41,277 bases of DNA from Microcaldota archaeon. Lineage in GTDB: Archaea; Micrarchaeota; Micrarchaeia; Micrarchaeales; CABMGC01. Below, in pieces: positions 3,672 through 30,992 of the stretch (position 1 is the stretch's first letter; each line of letters begins with the position of its first letter). Location: positions 1 to 41,277 of the forward strand of contig DAHUYR010000017.1 of NCBI GenBank assembly GCA_027315135.1, read 5' to 3'. A model generated the notes under the pieces. The model was not told the origin of the DNA, did not search any database, and saw only the letters and a program-made list of their open reading frames with translations. The translations under genes and the position numbers were made by a program.

Positions 3672-3782
3672 TGGACTCGGCGGGAATCGCACCCGCGGCC
3701 TTTCCGTTTTTCGGAAGTTTCGACGAAACCCTTTCTAAGGGTTTCCTGCGAACGGAACGCTCTGCTCCTGAGCTACGAGCCC
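3672..3782 (-). tRNA. tRNA-Ala(CGC) with a 39-nt intron
   Basis: Cloverleaf assembled by eye. Acceptor GGGCTCG/CGAGTCC contains the G3-U70 wobble that identifies alanine tRNAs. D-arm GCTC/GAGC, anticodon stem TTCCG/CGGAA, T-arm GCGGG/CCCGC and discriminator A73. Mature length is 72 nt; CCA is not encoded. The anticodon CGC is at 3748-3750. The anticodon loop is interrupted between positions 37 and 38. The gene lies 40 bp from, and divergent to, the CCA-adding enzyme gene. Confidence 0.9.
3708..3746 (-). other. Archaeal tRNA intron (BHB type)
   Basis: The 39-nt insert at the canonical 37/38 site forms a bulge-helix-bulge. The anticodon stem is followed by a three-base AAA bulge at the 3' splice site. 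A 4-bp helix pairs TTCG (exon positions 32-35) with CGAA (intron 3' part), and a three-base CAG bulge lies at the 5' splice site. The intron interior has a 7-bp hairpin GAAACCC/GGGTTTC. This is the substrate architecture of the archaeal tRNA-splicing endonuclease. Confidence 0.85.
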
Positions 3783-9152: not shown

Positions 9153-10247
9153 ATGTCGATAACAAGGATTAATATAGGCCCTATACATCCGAGTACACAC
9201 GGAGTGATGCGCCTTGTCGCAGATATTGACGGGGATACTATAGAACGGATAGAGCCACACATAGGATTCCTCCACAGAGGGGTGGAAAAACTTACCGAGA
9301 CAAGGATGTATATGCAGAATCCTCCATACATGGAGAAGCTTGACTATCTGGCTCCAATGTCCTACGATGAAGCTTACGTGGCAGCTGTCGAGCAGGCGAT
9401 GGGCATAGAGGTAAAGGAGCGCGCAATGTACATCCGCGTAATACTATTAGAGCTGCAGAGAATCGCCAGCCATTTATTCTTTATAGGCACTATAGGAAAT
9501 GACTTGGGACAGATGTTCACATTGTTCATGTGGGCATACATGGACAGAGATAAGGTACTCGATCTGCTGCAGGAAGCAACAGGAAGCAGGATGTTCTATG
9601 TCAACATGCGGCTGGGCGGACTTATAAGCGATCTACCACCGGATTTTGAGGAAAGAGCCCTCAACACGCTTGACTATATAGAAAAAAGGGTACGGGAATA
9701 TGAATTATTCATAGAAAAGAACCCTGTATTCAAAGAGAGGATGAAGAACATTGGCATACTTACTCCTGAGAAGGCGATTGATTTGGGGGTAACTGGCCCT
9801 GTACTGAGGGCCTCAGGAGTGCAGTATGATGTAAGGAAGAACCTTCCATATTACGTATATGACAAATTGCATTTTGAGACAAAGATACTCACCAGAGGCG
9901 ATAACTTCTCAAGATACAAGGTAAGGCTGCTGGAGATGCGTGAAAGCATACGCCTGATAAAAACGGCATTCAAGACCATGCCTACTGGCGATGCGATAGG
10001 AATGCCTGTAAAGTTAAGAAGTCCTCCAACGAAGAACAAGATATCTATAGTGAGCAGGGAGGCGCCGAAGGGGGAGGTGATGATGTATCTGGTTGCAGAT
10101 GACCAGAAACCATACAGGCTCTCTATAAGGTCTCCAAACTTCATAAATCTGACGGCGATAACGCATCTTGCAAAGGGTCTAAGAATGGCAGACCTGTTCG
10201 CGACTCTAGGGACTTTGGATTTGGTGATGGGTTGTGTTGATAGATAA
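9153..10247 (+). CDS. nuoD: NADH-quinone oxidoreductase subunit D
   Basis: 49-kDa-type subunit (364 residues) forming the quinone pocket with NuoB. It has INIGPIHPSTHG at the N-terminus (HP-x-x-HG quinone histidine loop), HIGFLHRGVEKL, LQRIASHLFFIG and the canonical C-terminus GTLDLVMGCVDR. It lacks the extra N-terminal extension of some bacterial proteins. The ATG at 9153 was chosen because homologues begin here; it follows the nuoC stop by four bases. Its stop overlaps the proposed nuoH start by 11 bp. Confidence 0.95.
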   Translation: MSITRINIGPIHPSTHGVMRLVADIDGDTIERIEPHIGFLHRGVEKLTETRMYMQNPPYMEKLDYLAPMSYDEAYVAAVEQAMGIEVKERAMYIRVILLELQRIASHLFFIGTIGNDLGQMFTLFMWAYMDRDKVLDLLQEATGSRMFYVNMRLGGLISDLPPDFEERALNTLDYIEKRVREYELFIEKNPVFKERMKNIGILTPEKAIDLGVTGPVLRASGVQYDVRKNLPYYVYDKLHFETKILTRGDNFSRYKVRLLEMRESIRLIKTAFKTMPTGDAIGMPVKLRSPPTKNKISIVSREAPKGEVMMYLVADDQKPYRLSIRSPNFINLTAITHLAKGLRMADLFATLGTLDLVMGCVDR

Positions 10248-11241
10248 CATAATACAATTATTCAATGGCATGCTGCAATCAGGCAATATACTATACAACG
10301 TAGTGGCTCTGCTAATCTATGCTATACTTATCTTCTTCATGCTTGCGGTTTTCGGATAGATGTTCGGATGGATAGAAAGAAAGATAATTGCAAAAGCGCA
10401 GTACAGACACGGGCCAACCTATGTCGGAAAGTACGGAATATTGCAGAACTTTGCGGATCTGGTGAAGCTTTTTTCAAAAGCAAGCCTTGACCTAGACAAT
10501 GCTGATTCTATACTATATGGGACTGCACTTCCAATACTGATATCCATCACTATATTTACTGTTCTGCTGTTGCCAATATTTCCAAGCCTACAGGCTACTA
10601 ATATCGGTTTTGGTCTCCTACTCGTCTTTGTAGTGATCGCATTTATGCCGATAATGATATTCCTTTCTGGTTTTGCAAGCGGCAACAAGTTTGCAGACAT
10701 CTCCGCTCAAAGGTCCATACTGATGCTGCTCAGCTACGAAATACCATTGATGCTTGTCATAGCTGCCATAGGCCTTATATCAAAAGGATACAATCTGCAG
10801 AACATAATCGCAATGCAGTCAAACGCGTATTACATAGTGCTAATGCCAATCGGCTTCTTCATATTCTTCATAGCGATGCTCGCGGAGATAGAAAGGCCTC
10901 CATTTGACCTTATGGAAGCAGACTCAGAGCTAATAGCAGGATGGATAACTGACATGAGCCCGGCATACTATGCGCTTGTGCTCTTCCTGGATTACTCAAA
11001 GGTATTCATGTCAAGCTTGCTGATATCTATACTGTTCTTGGGAGGATGGCTGGGACCGGCGCCAATACCAGGAGTGGTATGGCTCATAATAAAGGCAATA
11101 ATAATAGCAGTAATAGCTGTGATAATAAGGGCCACAACCTTCCGTATGAGGATAGACAGGATCCTGCGCATGGGGTGGCTTATCCTGATACCTCTTTCAT
11201 TAATAAATCTTATAATAACATATATACTGTTTGTTGGTTGA
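10237..11241 (+). CDS. nuoH: NADH-quinone oxidoreductase subunit H, interrupted by an in-frame TAG
   Basis: Membrane subunit that links the quinone chamber to the proton channels. The homologous reading frame starts at TTG 10237, preceded by GGTGATG, and encodes a first helix (VVALLIYAILIFFMLAVFG). It then meets TAG at 10357-10359, and resumes at the very next codon with MFGWIERKIIAKAQYRHGP, the universally conserved ERR/QxRxGP segment. The remaining 293 residues are intact, with AEIERPPFDLMEADSEL as the quinone-site loop. If translation restarts at the ATG at 10360 the product lacks helix 1, which all NuoH proteins have. Possible explanations are a sequencing error (TGG to TAG), readthrough, reinitiation or a genuine split. 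Confidence 0.9.
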
Positions 11242-12398: not shown

Positions 12399-14174
12399 AT
12401 GCAGCCGTTATATCTTCTATTGCCATTGGCCGTTTCAATAATTATTATAGCTCTGCTCAAGAACAGGAAATTTCCCGGCATTATTGCGGTGCTTGGCAGC
12501 TTAGTCTCCCTTGCGATGATGCCTTTTGTCGCTTACGGTACCAAGTCACTGCCTTGGTTCACCGTCGGTACCCTATCATTAACCATAACAACTCTGATAA
12601 CTCCGATAAGCTATATGCTCCTTGCAGTAATACTTTTTGTATCTCCACTTGTATTCGCATATGCGACATGGTATATGGATAATCCAAGCGAACAGCGCAG
12701 GTTCTACATAGAGATGCTTGCATTCGAGTCTGCAATGCTAACATTTGCATTCAGCGGGAGCTTCATAACGTTTGCCATTGCATGGGGATTCCTAAGCCTT
12801 ACAAGCTATCTGCTAATAGGTTTCTGGAACACTAAACACGGTCCAATAGTGGCTTCGAGGAAGGCCTTGACAATGGTGCTTATAGGTGACATTGCAATAC
12901 TAGCAGCGATAGGGGTGATGGGGAGCACCTTCGGCACACTGGATTTCGCCACCATAATAAACGGTCTGTCATCAGCACCCAGAGGAGCAGTACTACTCAG
13001 TGCAGTCCTCATTGCCATAGCTGTATTCACCAAATCAGCCCAGTTCCCATTCCATGAATGGCTGATAGACGCAATGGAAGGACCTACTCCTGTATCAGCA
13101 TATCTACACTCGACAACCATGGTAAAGGCAGGAGTATTCTCGATTCTTGTACTGCTTCCACTGTTTCAATATACTGGGCTAACCTATGTGATATTAATTA
13201 TAGGTATACTTACCGCAGCGATTGCTACACTGAACGCGATGCGGGAATTCCATATAAAGAAGATAATCGCATATTCTACGATACAGGAACTTTCCCTAAT
13301 GATGGTTGCAATAGCTGCCGGAGCGGTGACTGCAGGCATATACTTCTTCTTCGTTCAGAGCTTCTACAAGGCTCTGCTGTTCTTCAGTTCAGGGTCTGCG
13401 ATGAAGGCTACTGGCGAGGAAGACATAAGAAAGGCAAACGGCCTGCACTCAAACAAACTGCTCTTCTATTCTACATTGTTCGGAGTGCTATCCCTTGCAG
13501 GCTTCATACCATTTTCAGGGTTCTTCTCGAGCATGGGGATAAGTTCATCCTTGACTGGAAATCTGCCAGTATATATCATATTGTCGGCGATAAGCTTCGG
13601 TACGAGCTTTTACATTATGAGATGGTTCCTATACATCGCAATGCCAACGACCAGTGATGAAGCAAAGATTGCATATAAAACGCAACCAAAGCGCATGATG
13701 GTTCCAATAGCAATACTTGCCATCGCGACACTTGCAGCATCCTTGCTGTTCACAAGATTCCAATCGCTGATGACAAATGGCCCATATTATACTTATGCAG
13801 TTTCAGGGATCCCGCTAAGCTTCAGCATAACTGATGCAGTATCATTCATACTCCTGATAAGCATAGCTGCAATATCTGCTTACCTGATTTATGTAAAGAA
13901 AAGAGTGGTAACCTCTTCAAAACTATCTGGTTTCGGATATACTGCTCCGGCGATGAATTCTTTCTATATGCATTTCTCATATTTCACTATGGACATAGCA
14001 GAAGGAGTCGCAGTATTTGACACATTCCTCAGTGACTTCTTCGACGGCATCGGCAGATTTGTCATAAGATCCGGCTACTTAATAAGAAGAACATCCACAG
14101 GACAGATAAACTACTATGCTGCAATATTTGTTGTTGCATTGGTGGTTCTTGCTGCATATGCATACTTGATGTGA
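12399..14174 (+). CDS. nuoL: NADH-quinone oxidoreductase subunit L
   Basis: 591-residue antiporter-like subunit at the distal end of the membrane arm. It has about 16 hydrophobic segments. The signature FHEWLIDAMEGPTPVSAYLH with the following TTMVKAG is diagnostic of NuoL rather than NuoM or NuoN, and FTKSAQFPF carries the channel lysine. The C-terminal region (FDGIGRFVIRSGYLIRR) matches the long lateral helix plus final anchor, so the brace along the membrane arm appears to be present even though nuoM is missing from the operon. Six bases before nuoN. Confidence 0.93.
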   Translation: MQPLYLLLPLAVSIIIIALLKNRKFPGIIAVLGSLVSLAMMPFVAYGTKSLPWFTVGTLSLTITTLITPISYMLLAVILFVSPLVFAYATWYMDNPSEQRRFYIEMLAFESAMLTFAFSGSFITFAIAWGFLSLTSYLLIGFWNTKHGPIVASRKALTMVLIGDIAILAAIGVMGSTFGTLDFATIINGLSSAPRGAVLLSAVLIAIAVFTKSAQFPFHEWLIDAMEGPTPVSAYLHSTTMVKAGVFSILVLLPLFQYTGLTYVILIIGILTAAIATLNAMREFHIKKIIAYSTIQELSLMMVAIAAGAVTAGIYFFFVQSFYKALLFFSSGSAMKATGEEDIRKANGLHSNKLLFYSTLFGVLSLAGFIPFSGFFSSMGISSSLTGNLPVYIILSAISFGTSFYIMRWFLYIAMPTTSDEAKIAYKTQPKRMMVPIAILAIATLAASLLFTRFQSLMTNGPYYTYAVSGIPLSFSITDAVSFILLISIAAISAYLIYVKKRVVTSSKLSGFGYTAPAMNSFYMHFSYFTMDIAEGVAVFDTFLSDFFDGIGRFVIRSGYLIRRTSTGQINYYAAIFVVALVVLAAYAYLM

Positions 14175-14180
14175 ATAACC

Positions 14181-15563
14181 ATGCAATACTACCAACTAAT
14201 CTCTTTCCTGCTTCCCGTAATCCTTGTAGTTGGAAATATGTTCCTGCGACTGCTAAACAACAAAAAGACACAGCTCCTGTTCAACATAATCCTGCTTGCC
14301 ACGACTGCGGCATATGCGATATTTGGCGCAATAACCGGATATAACTTTGCAGTGCTAAACACTTACCTTATAAATCCATATTCGCTCTTCTTTACAATCC
14401 TGTTCGCAATAGGCATGATGCTTGTGAATGCACTTGCATTCACTTATTCTGAAGATTACTGCGATTTTGCCCTGATAAGCAGCTTCGCATTTTTGGGAAT
14501 GCTGCTCGTAGCAGCTTCAACCTCTATAATAACGATATTTCTAGGGCTTGAACTTGCAAGCATACCATCAGTCTTCATAATAATGCTATCAAAGAAAGGA
14601 AGCATAGAGTCGGCTGCAAAATTCTTCATAATGGCGTCAATATCAATAGCTGTTTTCTCATTTGCGGCTGTTCTGCTGTATGGAAGCACAGGCAGCTTTG
14701 CCCTGACAAATTACTCCTCGTCAACGCTGGTGACATTTGCGGCCGTATTGTTCATAGCATCGCTGGGCATGGACGCATCGATATTCCCATTCAACGTGCT
14801 TATACCTGACGTGTACCAAGGAGCATCTGCTTATGCCACATCTATGCTCGGAGGGATAAACAAAAAAATGGGCTTTGCAGCTCTGATACAGATTATGATA
14901 CTTGTATTCATAACAAATTCTCAGGCATTCTTGCTACTTATCGTACTTGCAGTGCTTACAATGTTCTACGGTAACATAACTGCGATACTGCAAAAGGATA
15001 TGAAACGCATGCTTGCATATTCATCAATCTCCCAGGCAGGATACATACTCATAGGGATAGTGGTTTCAACATCAGCAGGAATCGCTGCAAGCTTGTTCCA
15101 GATATTTGCTCACATGTTCATGTTTATAGGCACACTGGCAATAATTGCATGGCTGGAGAGGATGCACAGGTACAAGATAGATGATATTATAGGGTTGCAT
15201 GAGGATAACAAGTTTGCGGCGTTTGCGCTGAGCCTGATGCTTCTATCTATGATAGGCCTTCCGTTCACCACCGGCTTCGTAGGTAAGTTCCTAATATTCC
15301 TAAGCGCCGTCAGCGCAGGAATGGCATGGCTGGCGATAATAGGCATAATAAACAGCGTGATATCAGTTTTCTATTATGCAAAGGTGATAATAGCTGCTTA
15401 TACGTCTAAAGCTGTGCCGAAGAAAGCAAGCATGGACAGGTATACTACGGCAGTGATAGTAGTATGCATTGCAGCTACTCTGCTTTTTGGGATATACCCA
15501 CAACCGATAATAACAATTGCCAACAATGCAGCAGCGTACCTACTGTCTGTACCCAAAATCTAA
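14181..15563 (+). CDS. nuoN: NADH-quinone oxidoreductase subunit N
   Basis: 460-residue antiporter-like subunit, last gene of the operon. It is assigned to NuoN and not NuoM from FLGLELASIPSVFIIML with SIESAAKFFIMAS, from LIPDVYQGASAYATS (the PDVYxGA motif of NuoN), and from KDMKRMLAYSSISQAGYILIG. About 14 membrane helices. The proton-channel glutamate (GLELAS) and lysine (NKKMGFA) are kept. No nuoM lies between nuoL and nuoN, where it stands in most organisms. Confidence 0.92.
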   Translation: MQYYQLISFLLPVILVVGNMFLRLLNNKKTQLLFNIILLATTAAYAIFGAITGYNFAVLNTYLINPYSLFFTILFAIGMMLVNALAFTYSEDYCDFALISSFAFLGMLLVAASTSIITIFLGLELASIPSVFIIMLSKKGSIESAAKFFIMASISIAVFSFAAVLLYGSTGSFALTNYSSSTLVTFAAVLFIASLGMDASIFPFNVLIPDVYQGASAYATSMLGGINKKMGFAALIQIMILVFITNSQAFLLLIVLAVLTMFYGNITAILQKDMKRMLAYSSISQAGYILIGIVVSTSAGIAASLFQIFAHMFMFIGTLAIIAWLERMHRYKIDDIIGLHEDNKFAAFALSLMLLSMIGLPFTTGFVGKFLIFLSAVSAGMAWLAIIGIINSVISVFYYAKVIIAAYTSKAVPKKASMDRYTTAVIVVCIAATLLFGIYPQPIITIANNAAAYLLSVPKI

Positions 15564-17119: not shown

Positions 17120-17512
17120 ATGGAATACAAACATAACAGAACAAGTGTAACAATGGTAAACTACCACATAGTATTCTGTCCAAAATACAGAAGAAAGTTA
17201 TTGGTAGGAGACATTAAGAAAAGACTCGAAGAAATCATGTTTGATGTCGCACTTGAAAACGGATGGGAAATTATTTCAAAAGAAGTCATGCCAGACCATG
17301 TCCATCTCTTCATTTCTGCTGACGTAAGGTCAAGACCAGAAATAGTAGTCAAGAGATTCAAGGGCAGAAGTTCAAGATATTTAAGGAATGAATTCCCAGA
17401 ACTCCTAAAGATGCCTACTCTTTGGACTCGTTCGTACTTCCTTTCAACAGCAGGAAACGTAAGTGCTTCAACGATAAAGAAATATATAGAACAACAATGG
17501 GATAAGGTATGA
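17120..17512 (+). CDS. tnpA: IS200-like transposase TnpA (Y1 HUH)
   Basis: 130-residue tyrosine transposase that cuts and joins single-stranded IS ends at their hairpins. The HUH motif is in MPDHVHLFIS, the catalytic tyrosine is in STIKKYIEQQ, and the family N-terminus is present (MVNYHIVFCPKYRRKLL). Full length and uninterrupted, so probably active. TATA-rich sequence (GTATATGTATATAAAT) precedes it by about 30 bases. Its stop overlaps the next start (ATGA). Confidence 0.96.
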   Translation: MEYKHNRTSVTMVNYHIVFCPKYRRKLLVGDIKKRLEEIMFDVALENGWEIISKEVMPDHVHLFISADVRSRPEIVVKRFKGRSSRYLRNEFPELLKMPTLWTRSYFLSTAGNVSASTIKKYIEQQWDKV

Positions 17513-17748
17513 ATAGAAAATTGGCTTTAGTGCTCAGTATAATCTCAATACTCTTAGGCTTGACATTCTCTATAAGTAGTACTGTCTCTTATTATGGTAG
17601 AATGTGTTCCTGCCCAGCGGAAATCATAGGAACACCTCCAATACCGTGCTGCACTGACCCCTCTGCAATCCTTCTTCTATCATTAGGAATAATTCTTGTA
17701 GTTATAGGTCTAATTGCATTCATTAAACTCATACCAAATAAAAAATGA
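17509..17748 (+). CDS. Small two-helix membrane protein, IS cargo
   Basis: 79 residues with two hydrophobic helices (about 5-27 and 53-72). Between them is an extracellular loop with four cysteines (CSCP and CC). The C-terminus is Lys-rich. The ATG overlaps the tnpA stop (ATGA), and tnpB follows four bases later, so it is translated as part of the transposon operon. I recognise no family. Passenger genes at this position are unusual in IS200/IS605 elements; its benefit to element or host is unknown. Confidence 0.72.
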   Translation: MNRKLALVLSIISILLGLTFSISSTVSYYGRMCSCPAEIIGTPPIPCCTDPSAILLLSLGIILVVIGLIAFIKLIPNKK

Positions 17749-17752
17749 TTCT

Positions 17753-18772
17753 ATGATTCTAACCTTCAAGATAAAACACAACAGGGACTTCTCCTCAGAG
17801 TTAGGAAAGGCAAAACAGATTGCCGAGTATGTTCTGACTCACAAAACAAGGTCTTCAAAGGATGTGAAACAGTTCGGTCTGAAGTCGGCAATCGCAAACC
17901 AGATACTCAGGAAGTATGGGAATAATGAGACAATAAAGAATGTCAATAGGATAAAACTGACCATTCCCTCTCAATCTGTCCATGCAGATAAGGAGAAGAG
18001 AACAATAGAAATTCCATGCCTAAAGTTCAATGTGTCATACAATTTCAGGAATGACTATGAGAAGATAAACCAGATAGAATTGGACAACGAATATGTTTAT
18101 GTCTCAGTCAATATAAAGGAAGAACCACAAATAACTCCAGAGACATGGATGGGGGTAGATAGAAACACGACAGGACATATCGCAGTAGTCGGAAACCCAG
18201 ACACAGGAAAGATTCTAAAACTTGGAAAAGAGGCTCTGCACATTCACACAAAATACAGGAATATAAGAAAGAAGATGCAGAGACAGGGGAAGTATGGAGT
18301 AGTCAAAATGATAAGGAACAGGGAGTCAAGGATAATCAAGAACATCAACCACAACATCTCAAAGGCAATAGTAGAAACTGCAAAGGAGAACAATGCAGGA
18401 ATCAAACTTGAAAAATTGGAAGGCATAAGAAAGAATAGGAAACATTTAAGGAACTTCAATTATAGTCTGCATAGCTGGTCTTTCTACCAGTTGCAGACAT
18501 TTATCGAATACAAGGCAAAATTATGTGGAATACCTCTAACCTACGTGGAGCCTAAAAACACGTCCAAGGACTGTTCAAGGTGTGGAAACGAAGGAATTAG
18601 GGATTCAAAGAAATTCGTGTGCCAGTCGTGTGGACACGTAGACCATGCCGACGCAAATGCATCGTTCAACATATCGCAGCGTCCTCCAATAGGAGAAGGC
18701 AGAAGTCAATTGCACACAGACAGGGATGTGTGCAAGGGCAGCACTGATACGCCCCAAGGTGCAACTCTATGA
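17753..18772 (+). CDS. tnpB: TnpB RNA-guided endonuclease (IS605 OrfB)
   Basis: 339-residue TnpB, ancestor-type of Cas12. The RuvC catalytic set is complete: D136 in MGVDRNTTG, E220 in IKLEKLEGI and D300 in DHADANASF. The zinc ribbon is CSRC (274-277) and CQSC (290-293). The ATG at 17753 was chosen as the family start, four bases after the cargo gene. The protein uses an omega-RNA from the element's right end to cleave the donor site and promote element retention; the catalytic motifs suggest activity. The tail after the RuvC motif (GEGRSQLHTDRDVCKG) is hydrophilic, and its DNA may double as omega-RNA. Confidence 0.95.
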   Translation: MILTFKIKHNRDFSSELGKAKQIAEYVLTHKTRSSKDVKQFGLKSAIANQILRKYGNNETIKNVNRIKLTIPSQSVHADKEKRTIEIPCLKFNVSYNFRNDYEKINQIELDNEYVYVSVNIKEEPQITPETWMGVDRNTTGHIAVVGNPDTGKILKLGKEALHIHTKYRNIRKKMQRQGKYGVVKMIRNRESRIIKNINHNISKAIVETAKENNAGIKLEKLEGIRKNRKHLRNFNYSLHSWSFYQLQTFIEYKAKLCGIPLTYVEPKNTSKDCSRCGNEGIRDSKKFVCQSCGHVDHADANASFNISQRPPIGEGRSQLHTDRDVCKGSTDTPQGATL

Positions 18773-28469: not shown

Positions 28470-29219
28470 TCATCCTTTGAACAGCCTATCGTTTATGAAA
28501 TTTCCTGCTATTGTAGATGGGTTTATGACCACGGCCCTGTTCCCTGCAACTATCTTAAGATGGTGTTCAGCATCCTTGTTCGGTGCCACCACTATTATCT
28601 CCGCATTGACTGCCAGCTCCTTTACGCTTACTAGAGCATATACTGAAGTGGAGCTGTCGGCCACGTCTATCACAACTGCTTTGGCCTTGTCCAGGTTCAT
28701 CTCTTTCATGTCTCCATCAGACGCAAGATCTGCCTGGAACGCAAGGTAACCATATTTCTTGAGCCTATCAAGACTATCTGCCGCCTTGACTATCATGATG
28801 AACCTTTCTCCTATCTCAGAGAGCTTGTTTGCTATGTAAAGGTTTGTCGGCCCGTCTCCTATAAGGACCATGTGCTTGTTCAATGCTCTTCTCTCAAAAG
28901 ACGATATTCTGCCGCTTATTCTCTCTATTCTTCTGTTCACGAATTCACCTGAAAACGCCGTAATGGCAGACACGAACGTGCCAAGCCCTACGACCACTAA
29001 TATTATCACGAAAATCTTTGCAATCGGCGTCACTGGATAGACATCGCCGTACCCTATCGTTGCCAGCGTTATCACTGTAAAGTAAAGCGCATCAAGCGGA
29101 TTACTTATTGGCTGGTTGAATCCGCCGCTGCTTCCGATTACATAGCTCCCCACGATGCCGAATGCGAGAACTGCTGAAAGCACAAGGACATATGCGAATA
29201 CCTTTATGTTGAATCTCAT
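28470..29219 (-). CDS. Potassium channel with RCK-like domain
   Basis: 249 residues. Two membrane helices (about 8-30 and 65-90) flank the pore helix and selectivity filter TLATIGYGD. A cytosolic Rossmann domain from about residue 112 (HMVLIGDGPTNLYIANKL) follows. RCK domains normally have G-x-G-x-x-G; here the glycines are partly replaced (GDGPTN), so nucleotide binding may be altered. There is no RCK-C lobe, making it shorter than MthK. Likely gates K+ flow in response to an unknown ligand. Leads the operon with sua5. Confidence 0.9.
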   Translation of the reverse strand: MRFNIKVFAYVLVLSAVLAFGIVGSYVIGSSGGFNQPISNPLDALYFTVITLATIGYGDVYPVTPIAKIFVIILVVVGLGTFVSAITAFSGEFVNRRIERISGRISSFERRALNKHMVLIGDGPTNLYIANKLSEIGERFIMIVKAADSLDRLKKYGYLAFQADLASDGDMKEMNLDKAKAVVIDVADSSTSVYALVSVKELAVNAEIIVVAPNKDAEHHLKIVAGNRAVVINPSTIAGNFINDRLFKG

Positions 29220-29287
29220 TAAGACCAGTTTTGATAATTAGTTGGATAAAGAGAGATACTGCATATTATATAATAAATACCTTATGT

Positions 29288-30199
29288 TCAACTCTTGGGT
29301 TTCTGCCTCATCCTTTCCCTGAATGAGACCAGCTTTCCAAGAAATGCTGAGTTGCCCTTTGCAATCTCCTTCCCAAACTCGACAAAGGTCCGGCTCACGT
29401 AATCAGAAAAAAAATCTTCCAGATCCTTTATATCCTTCCTCTCAAGCATGAAATCCAGTGCCTTTGCATTCTCGCGCACATGCTCCAGGTTTCCTGCCTT
29501 TGGTATAGCGACGGTATTGTCCTTCGAGACTACCCAGTTAAGGGCCACCTGCGCTGCGCTCTTTCCATGCCTCTCTCCAACCATCTTCAACACATCTGTC
29601 GCTTCGTGGCGTCTTTCAAGAAGACCTCCACGTGCAAGCGGGCTGTATGCTATTACAGTTATCTTTTCTTTTTTGCAGAATTTTGCAAGCTCCTTTTCAA
29701 TCTCCCTTGCAGTCAGGCTGTACTGTACCTGGTTCGACGCTATCTCGTTTTTCTTTAGGCATGCGTTTGCCTCATTTATGTCCTCTACGCTGAAGTTGCT
29801 TACTCCTATGTGGCGTATCTTCCCCTCTTTAACAAGCTCCTCCATCGCCTTCATGGTCTCGCTTATAGGGACCCGTCGGTTTGGCCAGTGCAGCTGGTAC
29901 AGGTCTATCTGTTTTACACCAAGGCGCTTAAGGCTTGCATTGCATGATGCCTTAACCTCCTCATATCTGAAATGCTCCGGCGAGACCTTTGTTGCTATGA
30001 ACACCTCCTCGCCTTTTATTGCCTGACCGACTATGTCCTCAGTGTGATACATTTCCGCCGTATCTACGAAGCGCATGTCGAGTTTAAGCCCCTCCTTTAT
30101 CGATTCTATTGCAGTGCCATGGTCGCTGCCAAGCTTCCATGTACCCATCCCAAGTGCAGGTATCCTTTCTCCAGTCTTTCCAAGCTCTACAAGTCTCAT
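29288..30199 (-). CDS. Aldo/keto reductase
   Basis: 303-residue TIM-barrel oxidoreductase that reduces aldehydes or ketones with NAD(P)H. The tetrad is visible: Asp in FVDTAEMYH with Tyr a few residues on, Lys in FIATKVSPEH and His in YQLHWPNRR. Cofactor-binding strand AIPKAGNLEHVRENA near the end. The ATG at 30199 was chosen; a TTG at 30208 adds three residues. Little leader is available, so the transcript may be leaderless. Divergent from the alpha/beta hydrolase gene. Physiological substrate unknown. Confidence 0.92.
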   Translation of the reverse strand: MRLVELGKTGERIPALGMGTWKLGSDHGTAIESIKEGLKLDMRFVDTAEMYHTEDIVGQAIKGEEVFIATKVSPEHFRYEEVKASCNASLKRLGVKQIDLYQLHWPNRRVPISETMKAMEELVKEGKIRHIGVSNFSVEDINEANACLKKNEIASNQVQYSLTAREIEKELAKFCKKEKITVIAYSPLARGGLLERRHEATDVLKMVGERHGKSAAQVALNWVVSKDNTVAIPKAGNLEHVRENAKALDFMLERKDIKDLEDFFSDYVSRTFVEFGKEIAKGNSAFLGKLVSFRERMRQKPKS

Positions 30200-30248
30200 T
30201 CTGCTCAAAGAATAATAAGAATTAAAAGTTTTATAACTATGCTTAATA

Positions 30249-30992
30249 ATGGAACATATGCTTATGAAAGACCGATATTTCAGCTCAAGCGTCGGAAGGC
30301 TGCATTACAGGTATTCCGATGGTAATTCTGCACAAACTATCGTGCTCCTGCATGGCTTCGCGTCGAGTTCACTGTCATGGGCAAGGTTCATAGAAAAGCT
30401 TCCTGATACGATGGATGTTGTCGCACCAGACCTTCTCGGCCACGGCCTTTCCGAAGCGCCAGAAATAGAATTCAACATATCTAATCAGGCAAAAGCTGTA
30501 GAGGAACTTATTGCAAGCCTCAATGCAAGGAACATCACCATAATGGGGCATTCATATGGGGGATGGATAGCAGCTACAATCGCGCAGAAAGGCCTGTGTA
30601 ATTACCTTATACTGGAAGATTCTGCAGGACTTGACATCATGGATGATGAAAGGCTTTCCTCAGACCCTGATTTCATGGAGAAGTTCATAAAACAAGCGTT
30701 GGCAACAAATCCGAATGAACGTGTATTGAGGAGCATCATGTACTCAAGAAAACAGTCTGATTATCTTACACCTGGCACACTATCATCGATAAGCATGCCA
30801 ACACTCATAGTGTGGGGCAATCAGGATCTCATCGTTCCAGTCAAATTTGCATATGCGTTCAACAGCCGCATAAAAAACAGCGAACTGTTCGTATTGCACG
30901 ATGCGAAGCACACTCCGCATTATACGAACCCTAAAGAAGTAGCGGACAAGGTCATCTCCTTCCTTGTCCAAAGCAAAAAGATATTAAAATAA
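30249..30992 (+). CDS. Alpha/beta-hydrolase fold protein
   Basis: 247 residues. The oxyanion strand is VLLHGFASSSLSW, the nucleophile elbow is MGHSYGG (Ser about 100), the acid is in WGNQDLIVP and the histidine in DAKHTPHY. The mid-region cap is short. Similar to esterases or carboxylic ester hydrolases of the haloalkane-dehalogenase-like group; the substrate cannot be named. No signal peptide. Separate gene, divergent from the aldo/keto reductase. An ATG at 30264 is an alternative start. Confidence 0.85.
   Translation: MEHMLMKDRYFSSSVGRLHYRYSDGNSAQTIVLLHGFASSSLSWARFIEKLPDTMDVVAPDLLGHGLSEAPEIEFNISNQAKAVEELIASLNARNITIMGHSYGGWIAATIAQKGLCNYLILEDSAGLDIMDDERLSSDPDFMEKFIKQALATNPNERVLRSIMYSRKQSDYLTPGTLSSISMPTLIVWGNQDLIVPVKFAYAFNSRIKNSELFVLHDAKHTPHYTNPKEVADKVISFLVQSKKILK

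Follow-up and report, generated by a model that had tools for sequence, protein, structure and literature searches.

How does a conserved gene of complex I come to carry an amber codon within an otherwise open frame, and is this codon read through, followed by a restart, newly mutated or simply wrong? The window analysed here, i.e., the whole stretch of 41,277 nucleotides, is contig C31 of the metagenome-assembled genome (MAG) of a Microcaldota archaeon (G000; 806,683 bases in 50 contigs, 88% completeness). The named close matches were all Micrarchaeota MAGs. The limits of the nuoH frame are the TTG at 10237 and the TGA at 11239-11241, and the translation of 10237-11241 reads LIDNIIQLFN...FFMLAVFG*MFGWIERKIIAKAQYRHGP...ILFVG*. 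The TAG at 10357-10359 is the sole stop inside this frame and is adjoined by the ATG at 10360.

A preliminary description of this locus had reported an amber codon in nuoH and a TTG start with GGTGAT upstream. Both are present: the frame is open apart from this codon, and GGTGAT lies eight bases 5' of the TTG, in a start region that the congeners share. We take GGTGAT to be a Shine-Dalgarno-like element on the basis of the archaeal 16S 3' end. The features of the locus are listed below.

10223..10228, + strand: GGTGAT, Shine-Dalgarno-like element that precedes the usual start of nuoH, within the 3' end of nuoD (sequence)
10237..10356, + strand: 5' part of nuoH, 40 codons with a TTG start, transmembrane helix 1 (full-length alignment with nuoH of congeners)
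10357..10359, + strand: in-frame TAG; Tyr codon TAC in the congeners with nuoH (sequence and comparison)
10360..11241, + strand: remainder of nuoH, 293 codons plus TGA with an ATG start; of the four congeners that have nuoH, three also code for Met here

The open reading frame 10360-11241 was identified as NuoH (Pfam NADHdh, 3.9e-83, profile positions 17-297 of 298), and the cut falls at the end of helix 1. The complex I row in the window has the order A-B-C-D-H-I-J-K-L-N and, as described previously for the remainder of the operon, its other genes are all open. L and an N-like gene occupy 12399-15563, a separate M is not beside them, and a second antiporter-like match is found in the genome at C36:1389-2609. 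The genome contains one copy of nuoH, and no second copy was found on the viral contigs scanned. Elsewhere in the window, a pair of open reading frames at 17120-18772 resembles, by eye, the TnpA and TnpB of IS200/IS605.

The nuoH codon in relatives and selection on the gene

The comparison with nuoH of close relatives, which the preliminary description had proposed, revealed a sense codon one base away from the stop. Namely, all four congeners with nuoH (G001, G003, G004, and G005) have TAC (Tyr) at this position; therefore, G000 differs from them by a single C-to-G change at 10359. This replaces the previously suggested change of TGG to TAG by that of TAC to TAG. In the further relatives that were read, the position is occupied by Tyr in nearly all cases and by Val in two. 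The codon following it is ATG (Met) in three congeners and codes for Thr in G003. Of the 164 genomes searched within the order, 143 contain nuoH, G000 included, and none of the other 142 has an internal stop in this gene. A second match in G010 was weak (E about 1e-3), contained three TAG and resembled nuoH too little to be counted.

In-frame stops were also examined by setting 263 kb of G000, about one third of the genome, against 459 kb of G004, a congener. These sequences share about 106-117 genes with about 29,000-30,600 aligned codons. The stop in nuoH was the only convincing one among them, and no frameshift-split genes were found in this sample. The filtered comparison was used for this; an unfiltered run gave many stops. 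The other stops in both the filtered and unfiltered comparisons were judged by eye to be in antisense shadow frames or upstream of the gene starts.

The dN/dS of nuoH against the congeners was about 0.04. Private residue changes in the gene number 3 in G000, in comparison with 13 in G004, 12 in G005, and 23 in G003, although its private synonymous codons number 27 (13, 13, and 19 in the same congeners). Both upstream and downstream of the stop, the gene is as constrained as in the congeners, and neither relaxed selection nor a second lesion (stop or frameshift) was seen in nuoH or in the row. By a rough estimate, neutral drift over more than about a tenth of the G000 branch would have produced many more residue changes. 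The low dN/dS and the few private residue changes therefore indicate that nuoH was functional until now and, together with the lack of any further lesion, rule out an old pseudogene. As selection is intact, any loss of nuoH has to be very recent. Thus, the previous opinion that decay is unlikely is correct as regards old decay but does not extend to a very recent mutation.

A probable one-base error or a possible recent nonsense mutation

We consider nuoH of this organism to be an ordinary conserved complex I gene and hold, with moderate confidence, that the stop most likely goes back to a single wrong base, G in place of C at 10359, in the reads or in the consensus sequence of the MAG. Such an error would turn the Tyr codon into TAG, while nuoH is probably intact in the organism. 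The difference concerns a single base, is absent in all relatives searched, is isolated in the genome sample, and is found in a gene under intact selection. A sequencing or assembly error is thus the best supported of the options named in the preliminary description. Two observations speak against it. There is no other error in the row of complex I genes, and the assembly is therefore not generally poor. Moreover, C-to-G accounts for only 3 of about 111 G000-specific third-position changes and is not a dominant class. In spite of this, we infer that the base at 10359 is most likely erroneous and not newly mutated in the organism; a very recent nonsense mutation is the next most likely account.

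It should be added that, within 10352-10376, the changed base creates the 7-mer GGATAGA, which is the same as a 7-mer a few bases downstream. In the genome sample, a match of this kind arises from about 4% of random C-to-G changes. The repeat hints faintly at copying from a nearby template, which might have taken place in the cell or during library preparation.

A genuine nonsense mutation that arose very recently in the population sampled, either fixed in a strain or polymorphic, is a clearly less probable explanation, although one to be taken seriously. It would represent the first step of complex I loss. A single base change suffices for it, and a fresh nonsense mutation is credible because some members of the order lack complex I. 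Namely, the near-complete genomes of two genera (G030, G153; G094) are without nuoH, and G030 is also without nuoD and nuoL matches. In agreement with this, NADH dehydrogenase was reported to be absent from two genomes in a survey of Micrarchaeota (PMC5864196). However, the absence of both a second lesion and relaxed selection in nuoH or its row counts against this explanation, and the mutation would need to have been caught almost at birth.

Possible restart at the abutting ATG or decoding of TAG

Alternatively, translation might stop at the TAG and restart at the ATG. The helix 1 peptide of 40 residues and the core of 293 residues made in this way would then assemble together. Such a split protein was one of the options proposed previously, and we regard it as unlikely. 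The in-frame ATG does abut the TAG, the break is at the end of helix 1, and both pieces are conserved, with normal selection acting on each. However, the ATG is an ancestral Met codon that occurs in three congeners free of the stop, and it is therefore not an adapted restart site. Furthermore, no Shine-Dalgarno-like element was seen by eye just 5' of 10360, and a split nuoH was found in no other genome of the order. The 40-residue piece alone had no Pfam match, which is uninformative at such a short length. The stop and the restart may, however, be coupled without a ribosome-binding signal. A TAG that is real and already fixed in the species, with NuoH made in two pieces via TAGATG and helix 1 forming a peptide of 40 residues on its own, seems more doubtful still. 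Were the TAG real, it would mark the very beginning of either the loss of this core subunit of complex I or a new arrangement of it in two pieces.

The least probable explanation by far is that readthrough or suppression of the TAG, by a suppressor tRNA, pyrrolysine or a programmed signal, yields full-length NuoH. In its favour, the downstream frame resumes immediately after the stop. However, TAG is an ordinary terminator in this genome, ending 16 of the 105 conserved genes in the sample, five of these in the window, and the archaeal release factor aRF1 is intact. No other convincing in-frame TAG was present in the sampled conserved genes, and reassignment of the code was rejected, in accordance with the preliminary description.

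The search for a suppressor tRNA or pylS, also proposed there, gave a negative result in this 88% complete genome. None of the forty tRNA matches, several of them with introns, has a CUA anticodon, and the anticodon-loop pattern search returned only known tRNAs (matched via their D loops) and one non-tRNA match. As about 12% of the genome is absent and some expected tRNAs, e.g., that for Trp, are missing from the matches, a suppressor could have escaped this search. The matches to the C-terminal profile of PylS (TIGR02367) were far below the cut-off, and control genomes without PylS give similarly weak ones; the N-terminal profile (TIGR03912) had no matches. Programmed readthrough, another of the earlier options, received no supporting signal: the RNA fold in the 100 bases 3' of the stop was nothing unusual (z = 0.21), and the stop is not conserved in relatives.

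Several tRNA genes required closer reading. The 'tRNA-Stop (tta)' of ARAGORN at L091:1501-1592 (G000:C25:13564-13655) was rejected as a stop-decoding tRNA and assigned as an intron-containing tRNA-Ile(UAU) from its stem GCGGU/GCCGU and loop C32 U33 U34 A35 U36 A37. This tRNA would decode AUA without a modified CAU tRNA. The tRNA at C40:46384 has the anticodon UCU (Arg) and not CUA. In the window, an intron-containing tRNA at 3672-3782 (- strand) with a G3-U70 acceptor pair was read as tRNA-Ala(CGC); it is missed by plain ARAGORN.

The stop is thus most likely due to a wrong base in the sequence or to a very fresh mutation, and not to a new way of decoding genes. A lone in-frame stop in one draft genome should not be taken as evidence of recoding before the relatives and the reads have been checked.

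Comparison with known systems

As in archaeal decoding by pyrrolysine or amber suppressors, a conserved gene contains an in-frame TAG. Unlike in those systems, neither PylS nor a CUA tRNA was found here and TAG is a normal stop, while the site is Tyr in relatives and the TAG is not conserved. The NADH dehydrogenase-like complex of Micrarchaeota has been described without nuoEFG (PMC5864196), and the row in the window is similar in comprising A, B, C, D, H, I, J, K, L, and an N-like gene; it differs from that complex in that nuoH is broken by TAG, in the G000 assembly only. Meanwhile, we saw no difference from the isolated premature stops of conserved genes in MAGs, whether these are base-call or consensus errors or strain-level nonsense mutations: as in those cases, the codon is one base from that of the relatives, there is no other lesion, and nuoH is under normal selection.
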